Shown piece after piece: positions 32,981 to 43,213 of a stretch of DNA of 64,000 nucleotides (position 1 is its first letter; each line of letters starts with the position of its first letter). The notes beneath the pieces are model-generated. The model was given only the letters and a program-made list of their open reading frames with translations. It searched no databases and was not told the origin of the DNA. Source of the DNA: Sulfobacillus thermotolerans (GTDB taxonomy: Bacteria > Bacillota > Sulfobacillia > Sulfobacillales > Sulfobacillaceae); contig CP019454.1 in assembly GCA_002951815.1 (NCBI GenBank), forward strand, positions 558,001 to 622,000, given 5' to 3'. The position numbers and the translations under genes are program-made.

Positions 32981-34610
32981 AGATTCTGCTGAAAAAGTCA
33001 CCCGCTTCCGATCCCCGAAAACCGCATAAAAGCAGGGATTTCCGGCCCCTTTTGTCGAATTTATCTAGTGACGAAACCATCCAAATTCGAGAGGGGGAAA
33101 TCCCGACAGCAGAGGTATTCGCGCTAACGGGTGCCATTTCCTGCTTCGGGACCACATGCAACGTGAGGACCAGGTGCAATTAGACTTTTTGACGGCGGCA
33201 ATGCCGCCGGACGTGTGGACATTACCGGCGGAATTGGCCTCTGTTGATCGCCTCCTCGGGGATCCCAGTATTCTCGCTCCTCTCTTGAGCAAGCTCGACC
33301 CCGTCCGGGGTCGGCCCTCCGTGCCGGCCGCGCAAGTTCTACGTTTGTTTTACTTGAAGGAACGGTATCAGTTGTCGGACCGCGATCTCATCCAGGAGGT
33401 CTCCGACAGCTTTCACTGGCGGCGGTTCTGCCACTTTGGAGTGGCCGATCGGTTGCCGCACCCCACCACGTTGACCTATTGGCCCCGACGGCTGGGCTCG
33501 GAGGGCGTGGCGGCCATCAACCGGGCCGTAACGGCCCGGCTGCAGGCGGAGAAAATCATCCGCGGTCGCCGATTGCGCATGGACTCGACCGTCATCGAAG
33601 CCGATATTCATCACCCGACCGATTCCGGTCTGATTGCGGATGGCATTCGTCGGGTCACGCGCGTCGCCCGACAGTTAGGAGCCACGCTTGAAGGAGCTTC
33701 GGTCCCCATCCGCGATCGGGCGCGCGCCATCAAACACCGCATTCTCGCCATCGGCAAGGTCTTGCGGCGTCGCACCGGGGAAGCCGTGGCGGAGGTGCGA
33801 CGGATTACCGAAGAACTCGCACGCATCGGCGAGGCGCAAGGCCGTGCGATCGCCCAGTTGGTTGACAGCGCCAAGCAGCAGATCACCGTCCTCGACCAGT
33901 CCCGAGCTCGTCGGGTGGCCCAGGTGGAACAAGCGCTCCAGGATCTCCAGACGGTCATTCGGCAGAGCCGCGCGGCCACGGATGGCGAACGCATTGCTGA
34001 CCGCGTCGTGAGTCTGGCCGACCCGGATGCCCGGCCCATTAATAAAGGGAAACTCGGTCAGCCGGTTCAATTTGGCTACAAAGTCCAGATCATCGAGGCG
34101 GAAGACGGGTTCGTCACCGGCTACACCGTGAGCATGGGAAATCCACCCGATACGGATGCCCTCGGCCCAGCCCTGGACCAGCATCGCGCCCACTTTGGCG
34201 CGATCCGGACATCGTCGCGACCGACCGGGGCTACGACAGTGCGGCAAATCAACGCGATTGTGGCCATCGCGGCATTAAAACGATCGCCATCCCGAAACGC
34301 GGTAAGAAATCGGCCACCCGCCTGGCCGAGGAACGGCGTCCCGCCTTTCGCCGGGCGCAACGCTGGCGCGCCGGCGGTGAAGGCACGATTAGCCGGTTGA
34401 AACGAAAATACGGGCTGCGCCGGAGTCGTTATCGTGAATACGAGGCTGTCTCTACCGGCATTGGCCTCGGAATTTTTACCCACAATGTGCGCCGCTGGGC
34501 CCAGCGGCACATCGCGTAGGAATCCACCCCGGATGGAAATGCCATAAAGTGGCGCTTTCCTCTGTCGGGTTCGTCGACATCGCGGTCTCCGGACTTTTTC
34601 AGCAGAATCT
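32981..34610 (+). mobile_element. Insertion sequence (ISNCY/IS5-like DDE), 1.63 kb
   Basis: Perfect 19-bp terminal inverted repeats AGATTCTGCTGAAAAAGTC (32981-32999) and its complement (34592-34610) bound a single frameshifted transposase gene. Flanks read TTAG on the left and CTAG on the right if counted from ATTCTGC, so a target duplication is uncertain. It is inserted just after the GNAT gene, close to a possible 25-aa ORF. Confidence 0.85.
33156..34519 (+). pseudogene. Transposase of the IS, frameshifted near the DDE second Asp
   Basis: The first frame (33156 to about 34200) carries an InsH-type N-terminal domain (SKLDPVRGRPSVPAAQVLRL), the first catalytic Asp in GRRLRMDSTVIEADIHHPTD, and a long helical insertion. 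After HFGA at about 34200 the family sequence continues in another frame: DPDIVATDRGYDSAANQRD (second Asp), KTIAIPKRG, GGEGTISRLKRKYG (catalytic Glu) and RRWAQRHIA, ending at TAG 34517-34519. One base is missing near 34200. No slippery run is present, so this looks like inactivation rather than programmed frameshifting. Confidence 0.8.
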
Positions 34611-34743
34611 AGCTATAGGTGAGGGAGACAAAAACGCCAACGAATTTCAGGGGGAATAAGAGGATAAGAGGCATGGGCAGGAATTGGTGAACCGATTGGT
34701 GAATGTTCCTTGCAAGGTGATGGATGAAAGGATGGGGTAATCA

Positions 34744-35067
34744 ATGGATGCTGAACTCAAAGCCTATCTGGACGCCATGCAACAGACGTTGTCGGCACAA
34801 ATTGCGGAGACACGCCAGCATGCCGAGCGACTGAATCAGGACACCCGCCAAGATCTGATGGCCCACGCTGAACGGCTGAATCAAGACACGCGTGTGCTTC
34901 TCGAAGACACGCGTGTGCTTCTCGAAGACACGCGTGTGCTTCTCGAAGACCTGCGCCACGACCTTCAGGCCGTGGCCAAAGGGGTGCTGACCGTCAATGA
35001 CAAGTTGGATCGGGTTACCGCCGACCACGAAGATCGGATCAGCCGCATGGAACGGAGAGTGCCGTAA
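34744..35067 (+). CDS. Short coiled-coil protein with heptad repeats
   Basis: A 107-aa protein, almost entirely helical and charged. It contains HAERLNQDTR twice and three exact DTRVLLE heptads encoded by three identical 21-bp repeats. The C-terminal part (VAKGVLTVNDKLDRVTADHE) is also coiled-coil. It lies 3 bases before the truncated integrase gene and probably belongs to the same former element. No function can be assigned. Confidence 0.6.
   Translation: MDAELKAYLDAMQQTLSAQIAETRQHAERLNQDTRQDLMAHAERLNQDTRVLLEDTRVLLEDTRVLLEDLRHDLQAVAKGVLTVNDKLDRVTADHEDRISRMERRVP
34885..34947 (+). repeat. Three tandem 21-bp repeats
   Basis: Three perfect copies of a 21-bp unit (starts at 34885, 34906, 34927) each contain the palindrome ACACGCGTGT. 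One unit encodes one heptad, DTRVLLE, so copy-number change would lengthen or shorten the coiled coil in frame. Confidence 0.9.
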
Positions 35068-35070
35068 GCG

Positions 35071-35385
35071 ATGCCGAAAGGCCCCAAAGATCCCTATGCC
35101 GTGGAACCCCGGAAACTGCCTTCCAGTCGTTTGAAAGGCCGGGTTGTACGCTATGACGAGATGGGCAAACGACACGAACTGACCCAAACGTTTGACACGA
35201 AACGTGAAGCCAAGCAGTGGGCCGAAACCGAAGCCGCACGGTATCGGGAAGACCCGAACCGCAAGCCGCCGAGTGAGGTCACGTTTACCGAGTTATTTGA
35301 AAAATGGTTGAACGGGGTGGCTGCGGCCCGGACACGGGATACGACCGTGATAGCGTATCGTCGGTATGGGAAACCTGGATGTTAG
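35071..35385 (+). pseudogene. Integrase N-terminal fragment, cut by an IS3-family element
   Basis: The 104-aa remnant has a basic arm-binding-like N-terminus (KLPSSRLKGRVVRYDEMGKR), the TFDTKREAKQWAETEAARYR segment, and the start of a core-binding domain (TFTELFEKWLNGVAAARTRD followed by TTVIAYRRYG). The catalytic domain is absent because the IS3-family end begins at about 35386. It is a different integrase from the one at 4112-5257 and marks the edge of a second, destroyed element. Confidence 0.75.
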
Positions 35386-35450
35386 TCTAAATTGTGGACA
35401 CCTCGAATTGAGACACGATGATACAATCATTCTCCATGGAGGTGAATCCG

Positions 35451-35727
35451 ATGGCCAATCAATATGATCGAGCGTTTAAAGAACAAGCGGTTCAACTCGT
35501 GTTGACCCAGCAAAAAAGTGGCGCGTGAACTGGGCATTCCCCCTAAGACCTTATATGGTTGGGTTGCCGCGTATAAGGGCGATCCGGTGGAACCCTTTGT
35601 GGGTCGTGGGCATCTGAAAGCGGAAGACCAAGCCCTGCGCGATTTGCAGCGACGCATTCGGGATCTCGAAGAGGAGAATGCGATCCTAAAAAAAGCGATG
35701 CGCATCTTCACCAACGATCGGAAGTAA
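35451..35727 (+). pseudogene. IS3-family OrfA, frameshifted
   Basis: It starts at ATG 35451 with GGAGG upstream and reads NQYDRAFKEQAVQLVLTQQK, then hits a stop after a run of six A residues (about 35511-35516). The HTH (VARELGIPPKTLYGWVAAYK) and leucine-zipper part (EEENAILKKAMRIFTNDRK) continue in another frame to TAA 35725-35727. Several residues typical of the HTH linker appear to be missing. Confidence 0.75.
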
Positions 35728-36584
35728 TCTTTCAGTTCATTCATGAACACCGCTTCACCTTCTCGATCACGAAGATGTGCCAAATCCTCGACGTTTCGCG
35801 AAGCGGGTATTATGCGTGGAGCCATCGTCCACCCAGTCCCCGGGCGCAGGCCCGGGCCCGGCGGGTCGAACGGATTCGGGCAGTGTTTACTGCGTCAGGG
35901 GAACGTTACGGCAGCCCCAAAATCACCGCCGTGTGACGGCGGGAAGGCGAGCGCATCCGTCAAAAAACGGTGGCACGGTGGATGCACGATCATCGATTGC
36001 GCTCTCGCGTGACACGGAAATATAAAGCCACCACCAATTCTCGGCATACGTGGCCGGTGCATGAGAATGTGTTGAATCAAACGTTTACCGCGGATCGCCC
36101 GCATGCCGTGTGGATGGCAGATATTCCCGACATCCCCACCGAGGAAGGATGGCTCTATTTAGCAAGCCTCGAAGACTTGTACACCCGAAAAATTGTGGGA
36201 TGGGCGGTGGATCGGCGCATGATGCAAGACTTAGTTCTCCGGGCCTTAGACCGCGCGGTCACGCACAGCCGGCCGCCGGCCGGCGTGCTGCATCACTCGG
36301 ATCGGGGGAGCCAATACGCCGCGACGGCTTACCAAGAGCGCCTTAAGCAATACGAGATGACGGCCAGCATGAGTCGAAAGGGCAATTGCTATGATAATGC
36401 CATGATTGAATCATGGCATAGCCTCCTGAAAAAGGAGCTCATTGACCTGACGAAATTCCGAACCCGGGCAGAAGCGGAAGTTGCGATCTTTGCCTATATC
36501 GAGATTTTTTATAATCGGCAGCGCGTCCATAGCGCCCTAGATTATCAGACTCCGACCGAGGCTGAGGCGGCATATCAAGCGTGA
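35724..36584 (+). pseudogene. IS3-family OrfB transposase with an in-frame stop
   Basis: From 35724 the frame reads VIFQFIHEHRFTFSITKMCQ, then the HTH_21-like SRSGYYAWSHRPPSPRAQAR, to a TGA at 35934-35936. Past it the frame continues with RREGERIRQKTVARWMHDH and a complete rve/DDE core: VWMADIPDIPTEEGWLYLAS (Asp), HHSDRGSQYAATAY (Asp), and NCYDNAMIESWHSLLKKELI (Glu). The catalytic residues remain, but one nonsense mutation blocks the full product. Confidence 0.8.
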
Positions 36585-36628
36585 TCGGGATAATGTCTCC
36601 ATTTTGGGTGTCCATTTTATTGACATAG

Positions 36629-37414
36629 GTCCAGACGACGCGGTTGACCAACCAGTTGACGGCCGCATTGAAGAGCTATTATTCGCAGGTCTTGGCCGCG
36701 TTCGCCGACATCGGCCGCCCGGTGGCGTTGGCTTTTTTGGCCGCATGGCCCGACCCGGTCGAGGCGCGCAAAATCGCGCTGAGCGATCTGATGACCTGGC
36801 TGCGGCAACATCGGTACCCACGGGCCGCCCAGGAGGCACCGCGCATCTGGAGCACGGTGCAACAGCGGGCCTTGGAGGCGTCGCTGGGGAAGCGCCGGGC
36901 CCAGGTGTGGGCCGTCCGCGCGCTGGTCGCCCAACTGCAAGCCTTGCAGGCGGAGCAGCGTGCGTTGCGCGAACACCTCGAAGAGCTTTTTTTGACGAAC
37001 CCGGATGCTGACCTCTGGATGAGCGTGCCCGGCGTCGCCGTAACGTTGGGCGCTCGTCTCCTGGCCGGGTTCGGTCCCGACCGGGACCGGTTTGAGCTGG
37101 CGGAGGCGGCTCAAGCGTTGGCGGGCACTAGTCCCGTGTTGTACCAAAGCGGAAAATTGAAACGGGTGCATATGCGTCGGGCTTGCGACAAGCATTTTCG
37201 GGCCACCGTGCATCAATTCGCATTCACCTCCTTGTCTCGTTGTGCGTGGGCTCGGCAGTACTACGACCAACACCGGGCCCGGGGTCACGGCCATCATGCG
37301 GCCTTACGCGCCTTGGCGAATCTCTGGATGCGCATTCTATTCCGGATGTGGAAAACCGGCCAACACTACGACGAATCCCGATTCTTGGCCAATCGGGCGC
37401 GGCACGCGTCCTAG
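36629..37414 (+). pseudogene. IS110-family transposase, C-terminal part only
   Basis: About 260 residues of the C-terminal half: TRLTNQLTAALKSYYSQVLA, DIGRPVALAFLAAW, and the Transposase_20 region MSVPGVAVTLGARLLAGFGP, EAAQALAGTSPVLYQSGKLK, ending FRMWKTGQHYDESRFLANRA. The N-terminal DEDD RuvC-like catalytic domain is missing because the IS3-family end abuts it at about 36623. It cannot be active. Confidence 0.75.
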
Positions 37415-38209: not shown

Positions 38210-38550
38210 TCGATGATTGGGCCTGGAAAAAGGGGCAACGCTATGGTACGGTGGTCCAATGGGTAACAAGTTCTGCGCTAGGTGGCCTCGGCCAGTTTCT
38301 TCTTTGAGGACACCTTAACCCGAATTCCCGGTTATCGCGAGATTGCAAACGGCCTTAAAATCCGCCGTGCCGCACAAGCCCAAACAAGAAACCGAGCAAA
38401 TCGGTTAAATCACGAGAAAGGATACGCTAGCGAAATTCCACGACGTGTGGGACAACCTCAAAGCAACCTGTATAATTGACACGAGATATGGCAACAAGCG
38501 AAGTCGCGTTACTGATGAGAGTGCAGATTGCTTGTGATGGGGGTGAGAAT

Positions 38551-39321
38551 ATGACTTGTTCAGTTGAGTCGAATAAGGAAAAGATAATTAAAAGTAAAAT
38601 GCGTGTCCAAAATCATGGGGAAGTGTTTACCCCAATGAGAATTGTTAACAGAATGCTTAACTTGCCTAAAATTCGTGAAGCTTGTCAGAACGTAACTTCT
38701 ACTTTCCTGGAGCCAACCGCAGGAGAAGGTGTGTTTCTGGTTGAAATTTTAAATAGGAAATTGAAGATGGTAGCAAACCATTATGGCGATGATTTAACAC
38801 GTTACGAGAACTATTCATTACTTGCTTTATCAACGTTGTATGGTGTTGAATTGCTTGAAGATAATGCTCAAAAATGCGTAATGAATATGTTTAAGGTCTA
38901 TTATGACGCTTATCGACAACAAGCAACTGAACATTGTGCAAAAATGAAAAATAAGGTCTTAGACAGCGCCAAAGTGATTATCGCTAACAACATTGCACTC
39001 GGCAACTTTCTGACTAAATTGACTACAAACGGTAATCCTATTACATTTAGTGAGTGGCAACCTATAAATTTACGCAAAGACACTAAGATAATCAAGATTC
39101 AACGTACTGAATACACGATCGACGATATTCTTGATGGCACAGTGAAGCAGAGCAACGCTTCAACTCATTTAGACAAAGTAGTTCAAATCACGTTGTTTAA
39201 CTTGTTTGATGATGATAAAGTATCCGAGACCGCGAAGAAACGAATGAGATACGTTCCTGTTAGGATTACTGATGTCTATAAGGAAGAGATGGAGGAAATC
39301 GATGGACAGAACAATAATTAA
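38551..39321 (+). CDS. N6-adenine methyltransferase-like small subunit
   Basis: A 256-aa AT-rich gene. It has a SAM-binding N6-MTase motif (FTPMRIVNRMLNLP, then FLEPTAGEGVFLVEILNRKL, motif I) but no NPPY motif; the equivalent position reads VIIANNIAL, so it may be non-catalytic. GGGGGTGAG stands 4 bases before the ATG at 38551. It overlaps the large GIY-YIG-helicase-MTase gene by 20 bases. Such pairs are annotated as restriction-modification systems; the small subunit probably assists the large one. Lys/Asn-rich codon use differs from the chromosomal genes, indicating recent transfer. Confidence 0.75.
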   Translation: MTCSVESNKEKIIKSKMRVQNHGEVFTPMRIVNRMLNLPKIREACQNVTSTFLEPTAGEGVFLVEILNRKLKMVANHYGDDLTRYENYSLLALSTLYGVELLEDNAQKCVMNMFKVYYDAYRQQATEHCAKMKNKVLDSAKVIIANNIALGNFLTKLTTNGNPITFSEWQPINLRKDTKIIKIQRTEYTIDDILDGTVKQSNASTHLDKVVQITLFNLFDDDKVSETAKKRMRYVPVRITDVYKEEMEEIDGQNNN

Positions 39322-42300
39322 ACCATATGAAGAACTGGACTTGAGAATATATGCCTATACCTTACCTGAAGTTCCTTCTCATGAAGGTTACGTTAAAATC
39401 GGTGATACGACTAGACAAGTCAAAAAACGTATTTTAGAACAGGTTGGAACGGCAGGGCTGAAACCTAATATTCTTTTTGAAAAGGTGGCAAAGAAGTCTG
39501 ATGGAACGTGGTTTCATGATAAGTCGCTTCATCACTTCCTTCAACAGAATGGGGTTCAAAAACAGGATTTTAATGGTCATGCAGACGAATGGTTCTATTT
39601 TAATGGAACACCAGAAAAGGCAGAACAGTTAACTGACAAGTACATTAATCGTGATTATGATGAAATTCAAGTTGATAACACTCATACAACCTACTTGCTG
39701 AGGACTGAACAACAAAGAGCGGTTCAGCTCACGCTGGATTATTACAATAGTGGAAAAGAACCGAGGGAATTTCTTTGGAATGCAAAACCCCGCTTTGGAA
39801 AAACACTGACTTCATACGATTTTTTAACAAAAATAAACGCTACAAACATTCTTATCGTAACCAACAGACCTGCTATAGCGAACTCATGGTTTGATGATTT
39901 TAAGAAATTCATTTCCTGGCAACAAACAGGAATGAAGTTCGTTTCTGAAACGGATTCATTGAAAGGTAGGGCATTATCTCGCGAGGATTTCCTTAATTTT
40001 ATAAACATCACCCACCATAAGAATCCTTCGCAAATAACCTTCATTTCGCTCCAAGACTTGAAGGGTGCAAAATTTGCTGGCGGGAACTACCAAAAGCTTG
40101 AATGGGTTAGTGGACTAAATTGGGATTTGCTAATCATCGATGAAGCACACGAAGGCGTTGATACCGTAAAAACAGACGTAGTTTTCGATAAAATCAAACG
40201 AAACTTCACACTACATTTGTCAGGTACTCCTTTCAAAGCATTGGCAAACAATAAATTTAATGAAGACCAAATTTTCAACTGGTCGTATGTTGATGAACAA
40301 GCAGCAAAAACAGATTGGGATTACACGAAAGGCAGTAATCCGTATGAAAATCTGCCAACATTGAGCTTATTCACTTACCAAATGAGTAAAATGATTGAGG
40401 ACCAAGTGTCTAAGGGATTAATATTGGATGACGGTAGTAATGTTGATTATGCTTTCGACTTGAATGAATTTTTTAGTGTTAAGGGAAATGGCAAATTTGA
40501 ATATGAATCAAGCGTGAAAAGATTCCTTGATAACCTATCCTCAGGTAAGTTTCCGTTTTCGACAGAAGAACACAGAAGCGAATTAAACCATACTTTTTGG
40601 CTATTACCGCGTGTTAACTCTGCAAAGGCACTGGAAGCATTGCTAAAATCTCACCCTGTCTTCAGTGAATATAAGATTGTCTTAGCGGCCGGGGACGGAA
40701 TGAGCCTTGACAGCGATCTGGTTCTTGAAGAAGAAGGACGGGACTATAAGCGGAACGAAAGGAGTTTCGATAAGGTTAAAAAGGCAATTTCTGAAAATGA
40801 AAAAACGATAACCTTATCTGTTGGGCAACTTACAACTGGTGTTACCATTCCCCAATGGTCTGCCGTGCTTATGCTCAGCAACATTAAATCTTCGGCTTTG
40901 TATTTCCAAGCGGCGTTTCGTGCCCAAAACCCTTATGAGTTTGAGCAGGGCGGGATGCTTTACAGGAAAGAAAACGCCTATATTTTCGATTTCGCTCCAG
41001 AACGAACACTGGTACTCTTTGACGAATTCGCTAATAACTTAACAAGTGGCAGGTTAAAAACAAATGAGGAACGTAAGAAGAAGATCAAAAAGTTGTTGAA
41101 CTTCTTCCCGGTTATTGGGGAAGATGATGAAGGTAATATGCACGAGTTGGACGCGGTAGAAGTTTTAACTATTCCTACGCATCTTACCTCGATAGAAATA
41201 GTCAAACGTGGGTTTATGAGTAACCTTTTATTTGCAAATATCTCAGGTATTTTTGGTGGTGGAAATTCACCGTTTAAGGATATACTGAATAAGATGAAGC
41301 CTGAAAAAAATAAGCGTTTAATAGACCGTAGGGATGTTAATGTAACATCTCCAATGCTTGATGTTGCTGGAAACGTTAATGTTCCTACAGACATAGTTAT
41401 CAGTCATACAAAAGACATGTTCGGAGACGCAATCTATAGGGTCATGGAAACATCCGCAATTTATAGAATACCTGAAGCTTCCGCTCTCGCTAACGGAATC
41501 CAACATACGCTAGATAAAGGTTTCGGCAAGTTTAAAGAAGCATTTAAGTTAAATAAAGCTCAAACGGATAAAATAAAAAATGAAGTAACATCAGTAATTC
41601 AAGATGTTGTTCAAAAAAACATTGAAATGTACGAAAATCAAATTCGGGAAGTAGAACGCAATTTAAAGGATGAATTTCACACAGCCCAAGAAGATCATGA
41701 TGACGTTAAAGTTGGCCAACTCAAAGCTGAACTCGAACGAAAAAAGGGAGAAGTTAATCAAAGCCTCATTGTAAATCTTAATAGAGAAGTGAGTGAAACG
41801 GTTGAAATTGCGGTCGAAAAGCAAATTGTCGAAGTGGAAGAGAAGAAGAAAAAGACTACCGAAGATGATGTTCGGGATCATTTGCGTGGATTTGCTCGAA
41901 CCATTCCTTCATTCCTTATGGCTTATGGCGACGATGATACGACTTTAGCCAATTTTGAAGTAAATATTGATGAATCAACTTTTGAAGAATTAACAAGCAT
42001 TACAGTTGATGAATTTAAAAAACTGCGAGATGGGTTTGATTATGTAGACGAACTTGGAAATAACCATAAAGTTTCTGGTTTATTCAATGAGGTGGTGTTT
42101 GACGCTAGTATCAAAGAATTCCTCGATACGGAAAAACGATTATCAAATTATTTTGATGAAACGCTTAGCGAAGACATTTTTGATTACATTCCTCCGCAGC
42201 AAACAAACCAAATATTCACTCCCAGAGGAGTGGTGAAATTGATGTGCGATTTACTCGCCGCAAACAATATTGGAATCTTTAGCAATTATAATGTTAAGTT

Positions 42301-43213
42301 CATCGATTTATATACAAAAAGTGGACTTTATATTACGGAAATCGTGAAACGCTTGAATGAAGGTTTGAAGGACCAAATTACCAATCCCGAAGAACGAATT
42401 AAATGGATTCTTGAAAATCAGGTTTATGCATGTGCTCCAAGTAACATTATTTATAACATTGCCAAAAAATATATTTTTGGCGACTTTAAGGGTATTTCTA
42501 CCAAACACATTGTTGAATGTGATCTAATGGAATTTGCAAAGAACGGCACTGTTAAAAAGAAATTACGAGATTTATTTGGAGATGAGAATTTGAAGTTTAA
42601 TGTGATTATTGGAAACCCACCATATCAAGAAATGGATGGAGGAGCGCAAGCAAGTGCTAGCCCGATTTATCACCATTTTGTACGCTTGGCAAAGGCGCTT
42701 AATCCAGAACTAATTTCATTTATTATGCCTACTCGATGGTATGCAGGCGGGAAAGGTCTTGATGATTTCCGAGACGAAATGATAAACGATATTCATGTTC
42801 GAGAGCTTCACGACTGGTTAACCCCTGACGATATTTTTCCTAATACTAATATTCGTGGTGGAGTATGTTATTTCTTATGGGATAAAAATTATGACAATAG
42901 CCAAAATCTTACACGAGTTGTTACGCACGAAAATAATGTAGTCATTGGTGATGTGGTAAGACCAATGAAAATCGAGGGCGCTGACATATTTGTTCGTGAT
43001 GGAAACGCAGTTCCTATTCTTGCTAAAGTATTTGCTGATCAAAACACAAATACAATGCTTAAGTATATTTCGCCGCTAAGACCGGTTGTGCTCTGCCCAG
43101 GTACCCATTCGCCATTAATCCACTGCTGGCTGATCTGTTCGATATCCAACGGCGTCATCCTCTCTGGAATTTTTCATATTGCGTATCTAGATTATATATT
43201 ATATACATATTAA
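39302..43213 (+). CDS. GIY-YIG/helicase/N6-MTase fusion restriction-modification protein, C-terminally truncated
   Basis: A 1303-aa fusion. Residues about 10-100 form a GIY-YIG/T5orf172-like nuclease (GYVKIGDTTRQVKKRILEQV). Residues about 135-560 form an SF2 helicase: AKPRFGKTLTSYDFL (Walker A-like), LLIIDEAHEGVDT, LHLSGTPFKAL, LTTGVTIPQWSAVLML, YFQAAFRAQNPYE. A long coiled coil follows (about 750-860). Residues about 960-1240 form an Eco57I-type MTase (NQIFTPRGVVKLMCDLLAAN, NVIIGNPPYQEMDGGAQASA). After MLKYISPLRPV (about 43085) the sequence leaves the family and ends in unrelated hydrophobic residues, so the target-recognition C-terminus is missing. Probably inactive for sequence-specific modification. 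Confidence 0.8.
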   Translation: MDRTIIKPYEELDLRIYAYTLPEVPSHEGYVKIGDTTRQVKKRILEQVGTAGLKPNILFEKVAKKSDGTWFHDKSLHHFLQQNGVQKQDFNGHADEWFYFNGTPEKAEQLTDKYINRDYDEIQVDNTHTTYLLRTEQQRAVQLTLDYYNSGKEPREFLWNAKPRFGKTLTSYDFLTKINATNILIVTNRPAIANSWFDDFKKFISWQQTGMKFVSETDSLKGRALSREDFLNFINITHHKNPSQITFISLQDLKGAKFAGGNYQKLEWVSGLNWDLLIIDEAHEGVDTVKTDVVFDKIKRNFTLHLSGTPFKALANNKFNEDQIFNWSYVDEQAAKTDWDYTKGSNPYENLPTLSLFTYQMSKMIEDQVSKGLILDDGSNVDYAFDLNEFFSVKGNGKFEYESSVKRFLDNLSSGKFPFSTEEHRSELNHTFWLLPRVNSAKALEALLKSHPVFSEYKIVLAAGDGMSLDSDLVLEEEGRDYKRNERSFDKVKKAISENEKTITLSVGQLTTGVTIPQWSAVLMLSNIKSSALYFQAAFRAQNPYEFEQGGMLYRKENAYIFDFAPERTLVLFDEFANNLTSGRLKTNEERKKKIKKLLNFFPVIGEDDEGNMHELDAVEVLTIPTHLTSIEIVKRGFMSNLLFANISGIFGGGNSPFKDILNKMKPEKNKRLIDRRDVNVTSPMLDVAGNVNVPTDIVISHTKDMFGDAIYRVMETSAIYRIPEASALANGIQHTLDKGFGKFKEAFKLNKAQTDKIKNEVTSVIQDVVQKNIEMYENQIREVERNLKDEFHTAQEDHDDVKVGQLKAELERKKGEVNQSLIVNLNREVSETVEIAVEKQIVEVEEKKKKTTEDDVRDHLRGFARTIPSFLMAYGDDDTTLANFEVNIDESTFEELTSITVDEFKKLRDGFDYVDELGNNHKVSGLFNEVVFDASIKEFLDTEKRLSNYFDETLSEDIFDYIPPQQTNQIFTPRGVVKLMCDLLAANNIGIFSNYNVKFIDLYTKSGLYITEIVKRLNEGLKDQITNPEERIKWILENQVYACAPSNIIYNIAKKYIFGDFKGISTKHIVECDLMEFAKNGTVKKKLRDLFGDENLKFNVIIGNPPYQEMDGGAQASASPIYHHFVRLAKALNPELISFIMPTRWYAGGKGLDDFRDEMINDIHVRELHDWLTPDDIFPNTNIRGGVCYFLWDKNYDNSQNLTRVVTHENNVVIGDVVRPMKIEGADIFVRDGNAVPILAKVFADQNTNTMLKYISPLRPVVLCPGTHSPLIHCWLICSISNGVILSGIFHIAYLDYILYTY

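Follow-up and report, generated by a model that had tools for sequence, protein, structure and literature searches.

A widespread family of putative ATP-dependent restriction-modification systems whose N6-adenine methyltransferase is probably divided over two proteins

Results

Two overlapping genes in the Sulfobacillus thermotolerans window

The window analysed here is a stretch of 64,000 nucleotides from Sulfobacillus thermotolerans, in whose list of open reading frames two overlapping genes on the + strand occupy positions 38551-43213, a small gene for a protein of 256 amino acids and, following it, the gene for a large chain. The small ORF extends from 38476 to 39321 (+), with an ATG at 38551, and the large ORF from 39272 to 43213 (+), with a probable ATG at 39302, which is the start used in relatives. 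The two genes encode the following features:

38551..39321, +: small subunit (256 aa, from ORF and motifs), SAM-binding half of a gamma-class N6-methyltransferase (MTase) with motifs X, I, II and III and no NPPY
38620..38634, +: motif X of the small subunit, EVFTP
38704..38736, +: motif I of the small subunit, FLEPTAGEGVF, with intact GxG
38836..38865, +: motif II of the small subunit, LYGVELLEDN, with intact acid
39302..43213 (ORF open from 39272), +: large chain, comprising GIY-YIG domain, SF2 motor, helical linker, SAM-dead MTase half and catalytic half; truncated
39350..39625, +: GIY-YIG (T5orf172) domain, residues 27-118, with Tyr27, Lys42-Ile-Gly44-x-Thr46, Arg53 and Asp83
39698..41251, +: SF2 helicase-like motor with RFGKT, DEAH, SGTPF and QAAFRAQ
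41852..42151, +: helical domain preceding the MTase and modelled with it
42158..42511, +: SAM-dead MTase N-half with motif X IFTP, FIDLYTKSGLY (Lys1016 in place of Gly) and YACAPS without the acid
42581..43084, +: catalytic half, from strand 4 and NPPY to the end of homology
42605-42628, +: NPPY motif IIGNPPYQ, residues 1112-1119
43085..43213, +: unrelated tail past the break

In the following, SMALL denotes the small protein, NHALF' the N-half of the large chain's MTase (the dead half) and CHALF everything from the NPPY strand onward (the catalytic half). An earlier sequence-only reading of the locus had described a second MTase-like subunit with motif I and without NPPY, and this holds: FLEPTAGEGVF is present and motif reading found no NPPY in the small protein. 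The protein covers only positions 22-132 of the 311 in the Pfam profile N6_Mtase, with a score below the cut-off, and matches the PADLOC model PDLC03626 (REase_MTase_IIG) weakly (E=0.007). Sequence comparison with solved structures returned only weak BsmI rows (E 0.35-0.37), and a profile of the small subunit matched no solved structure at E<=0.01. A profile made from the N-half of the large chain matches the small protein of the window pair with E 9e-12, and judged by this similarity the two are paralogues.

The same reading had placed a GIY-YIG-like nuclease, an SF2 motor and an N6-MTase in one chain, and all three are recovered by Pfam in the large protein, namely T5orf172 at residues 27-118 (23.0 bits, cut-off 20), ResIII at residues 143-321 (E=5.6e-16) and Eco57I at residues 1049-1189 (E=1e-21). 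The GIY-YIG likeness of the N-terminal 100 residues, chosen beforehand as one of two points on which that reading would stand or fall, is borne out by the T5orf172 match and by conservation of the core residues: the profile is matched by seven of nine aligned members (E<=0.01), and Tyr, Lys-x-Gly-x-Thr and Asp are kept in 70/70 homologous domains and Arg in 69/70. The core acid of GIY-YIG enzymes is Glu; here it is Asp. The domain is predicted to cleave DNA. The helicase motifs RFGKT, DEAH, SGTPF and QAAFRAQ are largely invariant in nine aligned relatives. PADLOC names the large chain REase_MTase_IIG (PDLC03626, E=5.8e-52), as it does all nine aligned large chains; NCBIfam gave no hits, and sequence comparison of the large chain with solved structures gave no match.

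The reading as a single-chain N6-MTase is supported in part only, as the large chain does not look self-sufficient at the sequence level. Gamma-class fold and the motif order X, I, IV, followed by the recognition domain, are found, the C-terminal domain in relatives only, whereas the SAM-binding motifs I and II are missing from the NPPY chain and present in the small subunit: in the large chain, DLYTKSG (motif I) and YACAPS (motif II) lack the SAM-holding residues that the small subunit has. In alignment with CamA, the Lys of the dead half falls on the GxG; it is invariant in an 11-row alignment drawn from the main groups. In CamA, according to the accessible part of its description, the matching Asp residues, in motif I and in motif II, make contact with SAH.

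Truncation and origin of the window copy

The window copy is broken, as had been supposed when intact relatives were named as worth studying. Three such relatives of 1430-1454 aa, L002 from Neobacillus cucumis, L003 and L006, align with it up to nucleotide 43084, which corresponds to large-chain residue 1271; the last ~42 residues of the chain are unrelated, and the ~180-residue C-terminal part of the relatives is missing. With the C-terminal parts of L002 and L006 as queries, the rest of the window yielded no convincing match (best E 0.011). Full-length homologues with a C-terminal domain thus exist, as anticipated; that the missing part is the target-recognition domain is a tentative assignment by position. 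The corresponding region of the chain L104 gives Z values of 5-7 in alignments with HsdS and Esub1 chains. Having no recognition domain, the window copy is probably inactive.

Two other origins of the gene arrangement were dropped. The overlap of the ORFs would fit a frame-shifted single gene; the small protein, however, is a homologue of the large chain's N-half and not a piece that the chain has lost. An insertion with target-site repeats does not agree with the absence of direct repeats at the ends, and the sequence behind the break occurs nowhere else in the genome.

The GC content of 36-40% over 39-43 kb compares with about 43-62% in the other 1-kb steps of the window. Of 398 genomes from the phylum that were searched, eight, including the genome itself, matched at E<=0.001, and among the genomes listed none of the two of the same family and none of the 13 of the same class did so. 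The nearest relatives, 79-82% identical, are from Bacillaceae and one Paenisporosarcina plasmid. Because the locus is AT-rich, absent from the listed genomes of its own family and class, and closest to Bacillaceae and a Paenisporosarcina plasmid, these sequence data fit a recent lateral acquisition, as proposed earlier. Directly upstream, a GC-rich block (window 33156-37414) holds pieces of several mobile elements, among them a DUF772 transposase, an rve integrase-core transposase, an IS110/IS116-type transposase and a 104-aa ORF with weak integrase-like matches; at 34883-34955, a 21-base unit is tandemly repeated within a small ORF.

The architecture had been called uncommon, which is no longer tenable: matches to the large chain occur in 89 plasmid records and extend over at least 80% of its length in 31 of these, and the system family is widespread. 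Features of the locus are kept in dozens of relatives and are therefore not due to chance. Enterococcus accounts for 39 of the 89 plasmid records. On the conjugative Enterococcus plasmid pE1123 (L030 290-4369), an intact system adjoins predicted fexA and optrA resistance genes.

SAM-binding and catalytic motifs lie on different proteins

Relatives were gathered from genome contigs, genomes of the phylum, plasmids, phages and viral contigs, and the motif census of SAM-half-like domains comprised 269 matched domains, or 189 after identical ones had been dropped, the motif I column lying outside the matched stretch in 14. Chains with neither motor nor CHALF contribute 108 domains, with Gly at the motif I position in 95 and Lys in four (nine unreadable), these four being NHALF' pieces from broken or split ORFs (L056, L038, L114 and L160). 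The 52 domains in chains with CHALF but no motor have Lys in 41 and Gly in six (five unreadable); the six are five SMALL-CHALF fusions and L088. All 29 domains in motor chains carry Lys (27) or Thr (2). Among distinct sequences, lone Gly-type SAM halves combine motif I Gly with the motif II acid in 95/95 cases and have NPPY or a variant in 0/95. The other 74 N-halves have Lys (72) or Thr (2) in place of the motif I Gly, with the motif II acid in none of the 70 that are readable. NPP is kept in all 61 chains that carry an N-half together with the catalytic half.

Each of the 62 dereplicated loci with a nuclease-motor and an NPPY half has a dead half, 56 with Lys and two with Thr by script and four with Lys by eye where the profile had missed it (L035, L039, L119, L014/L017), and 60 of them have a SAM half nearby. 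Of the two loci without SMALL, L119 ends at a contig edge and L137 has none in the DNA seen; in L032, SMALL lies across the start of the plasmid record. The pairing of SMALL with the large chain is conserved in Bacillota, Actinomycetota, Spirochaetota and Pseudomonadota.

Lone SAM-half genes were also encountered. In 28 loci (L071-L098), such a gene, mostly of 130-250 aa, occurs and the catalytic half was not found by profile. The lone SAM-half protein is matched by 93 phage records, many of them from cyanophages and Aeromonas phages.

The catalytic half is an exchangeable cassette

Clustering of the 119 loci with CHALF at 90% CHALF identity gave 73 clusters, 62 of which have a GIY-motor chain. 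In the commonest lay-out (33/73 clusters), SMALL is accompanied by an NHALF'-CHALF chain and a GIY-motor chain, so that nuclease-motor and MTase are separate proteins; the window type, with SMALL and a GIY-motor-NHALF'-CHALF chain, makes up eight clusters. The expectation that homologues retain the helicase fusion therefore fails in part. Six clusters have SMALL, CHALF and GIY-motor-NHALF' as separate genes in this order, two have SMALL, GIY-motor-NHALF' and CHALF, and five combine a SMALL-CHALF fusion with GIY-motor-NHALF', two of these being complete only in the overlapping loci L021 and L022. The remaining eight GIY-motor clusters are edge-cut or interrupted forms. The catalytic cassette thus occurs as part of the motor chain, as a chain of its own, following the dead half on a separate chain, or joined to the small protein.

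Pairwise comparisons show the exchange. Between the window chain and that of a Lysinibacillus plasmid (L035), the N-half is 13% and the catalytic half 69% identical, the switch falling within about 20 residues before NPPY. L004 and L005 share 81% in the motor and 79% in the N-half and 35% in the catalytic half plus C-terminal domain, and for L006 and L002 these values are 93%, 93% and 63%. By these sequence comparisons, the mobile unit is the NPPY half plus recognition domain, starting at the NPPY strand, and its boundary is the point at which the gene is cut in the three-gene lay-outs. The plasmid locus L035 (5950-9942) is itself a clear case of cassette exchange, an otherwise distant enzyme with a catalytic half like that of the window.

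Candidate partners of the catalytic half

In L021, L022, L104, L105 and L110, the SAM half and the catalytic half are joined, in canonical order, in a single chain that lies next to a motor chain. A sixth such fusion is found in Fusobacterium phage FNU4, whose complete genome has no match to the dead half at E<=1; the FNU4 chain, used as query in a viral scan, returned no relative. Only SMALL and CHALF are present in the DNA seen of L092, of L190/L191 and of one S-CAM7 pair in L168, S-CAM7 being the sole complete genome among these cases and holding another, intact-looking pair too. Two relatives of the L092 CHALF, L187 and L189, have an intact SAM half and CHALF in one chain.

In the AlphaFold model of the window's NHALF' and CHALF, the two form a single canonical MTase (pLDDT 84.9, pTM 0.85), which aligns with CamA-SAH at Z 23.7 (rmsd 3.5 A over 260 residues); the MTase part also models on 5ffj_B (Z 21.2) and 4xqk_B (Z 20.9). 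Packing of the catalytic half with the dead half in cis is therefore structurally credible in these models. For the natural fusion L104 (pLDDT 82, pTM 0.54), the NPPY strand was unformed and the SAM half not docked on the catalytic half; only 3/38 rows of the underlying alignment span both halves, and whole-length alignments to gamma MTases gave rmsd values of 7-10 A. We dropped this model as proof of docking, as the halves did not dock. Structure prediction thus favours the dead half as partner of the catalytic half, while the residues for SAM binding are on SMALL. This leaves either an exchange between the halves or a mode of SAM binding that is not visible here.

Phage loci add further combinations. 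Chains with NPPY and, by eye, an N-half without SAM motif lie beside a small SAM-half gene in L069, L070 and L192, and exceptions in which the small SAM half adjoins an MTase chain with an intact-looking SAM motif are L088, L076 and one S-CAM7 pair. In Vibrio phage phi-ST2 (L167 3301-5459), a 552-aa 'hypothetical protein' shows the former pattern, with a small SAM half next to it and queuosine-type genes around; by eye, it appears to start with a GIY-YIG-like part, followed by a half without SAM motif and an NPPY half. Tenacibaculum phage PTm1 was withdrawn as a case without dead half, since a weak, frame-shifted dead-half match lies upstream of its catalytic half. There (L037 4600-7451), a gene annotated 'type II restriction endonuclease' is the SAM half, and the NPPY gene seems to be preceded by a dead half that is frame-shifted and bears no annotation.

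Discussion

Relation to known systems

The parallel with type ISP enzymes (LlaGI, LlaBIII) that had been drawn from the sequence holds in the domain order on one chain, with nuclease, SF2 motor, helical linker, gamma N6-MTase and recognition domain. As far as the accessible texts go, type ISP is defined with an Mrr-family nuclease, and recognition of an unmodified site starts the SF2 motor, upon which the nuclease cuts. The present nuclease is GIY-YIG-like (T5orf172) instead. A self-sufficient single chain is likewise not what we find here: the SAM site of the chain looks dead by its motifs, the motifs are in a second, SAM-half subunit, and catalytic half and recognition domain are exchangeable as one cassette. 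By analogy with type ISP, translocation and collision-triggered cleavage are predicted for this system.

In Bacillus subtilis and relatives, dnmA-yeeB-yeeC likewise encode an MTase, an SF2 helicase and a T5orf172 protein together, although in three separate genes and with a type IIL-like MTase; this comparison is by description rather than by sequence, and the available part of that description mentions no divided MTase. M.AquI and M.EcoHK31I also form an MTase from two polypeptides. They are, however, according to the portions of the reports at hand, C5-MTases in which the division lies after motif VIII or around motif IX, whereas here an N6-adenine MTase would be divided between motifs III and IV and is accompanied by a dead paralogue of its first half. 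CamA and the gamma N6-MTases M.TaqI, M.BseCI, DrdV and HsdM share the modelled fold of dead half plus catalytic half, but carry SAM-binding and catalytic motifs on one chain, which are here on two. The PADLOC name REase_MTase_IIG leaves the split unrecorded. The accessible part of a survey of the GIY-YIG superfamily describes no fusion of this kind, and searches of one open-access library, which excludes subscription papers and REBASE and is weak evidence of absence, found no description of an N6-MTase divided in this way.

A probable divided methyltransferase and its alternatives

Split motifs, co-occurrence, natural fusions, loci with only SMALL and CHALF, and cassette exchange together favour a divided MTase. 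We therefore consider it probable that this is an ATP-dependent restriction-modification family in which a GIY-YIG nuclease and an SF2 motor are combined with a gamma N6-adenine MTase divided over two proteins, both of which are needed for methylation. From the distribution of the motifs we infer an active site shared by the two proteins, with SAM bound by the small subunit only. Several observations speak against this division: the undocked L104 model, the dead half that models in cis, the intact-looking phage chains, L137, the 28 loci with lone SAM halves, and PTm1.

Some of these would suit a large chain that is itself a complete MTase, whose dead-looking half tolerates the Lys and binds SAM in an altered way, the small subunit being an accessory such as a SAM sensor or docking subunit. 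Such a chain agrees with the canonical model formed in cis by the two halves and with the phage loci where an intact-looking MTase chain accompanies a small SAM half, and M.TaqI, according to the accessible part of its description, functions with an AxAxG motif I. We nevertheless regard it as rather unlikely, given that loss of the motif I Gly goes with loss of the motif II acid in every readable case while the small-subunit paralogue keeps both, and that catalytic half and Lys half are on different chains in several lay-outs. A pair that does not methylate at all, its large chain restricting only and reading DNA with a defunct MTase fold and its small protein a remnant or active elsewhere, could explain the degenerate SAM side of the large chain, and the available text on B. 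subtilis dnmA-yeeB-yeeC, with similar ingredients, reports no effect on phage infection. Without methylation, however, NPP and the SAM half would be expected to decay; NPP is retained throughout the N-half plus catalytic-half chains (61/61), and an intact SAM half stands beside the catalytic half in 60/62 loci, overlapping the next gene in the window, in the Paenisporosarcina plasmid locus L029 and in L030, which makes this explanation very improbable. Least of all do we expect an ordinary type IIG or type ISP enzyme next to an independent orphan methylase gene. The PADLOC call on the large chain (E=5.8e-52, 9/9 members) would agree with it, but the neighbour entirely lacks a catalytic half, and the pairing is conserved over four phyla (Bacillota to Pseudomonadota), with the parts fused in some loci.

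In the divided-MTase system as we envisage it, the small subunit would contribute the SAM-binding half, and the large chain the catalytic half with NPPY and, in intact copies, the target-recognition domain. The dead half, a non-binding paralogue with an almost invariant Lys, could have been retained as a structural or signalling part. Once catalytic half and recognition domain have read an unmethylated target, the motor would be free to travel on the DNA and the GIY-YIG domain to cut, following type ISP logic; translocation and cleavage by the system are assumed by this analogy. A more daring extension, which we think unlikely, is that the catalytic half methylates when paired with the SAM-loaded small subunit and, when paired with the motor-tied dead half, only reads the site and passes it on to the nuclease. 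In that case, the switch between modifying and cutting would consist in an exchange of half-domains at one edge of the beta-sheet, with the Lys marking the 'cut' partner.

If true, the system would represent a natural N6-adenine methylase divided between SAM site and catalytic motif, and its mobile catalytic half plus recognition domain a natural route to the exchange of sequence specificity. It would also offer a testable model for the coupling of methylation and cutting in a restriction enzyme, and provide the laboratory with natural split-methylase parts. Annotations of SAM-half genes would be corrected, which public records currently file as 'N-6 DNA methylase', 'hypothetical protein' or 'type II restriction endonuclease'.
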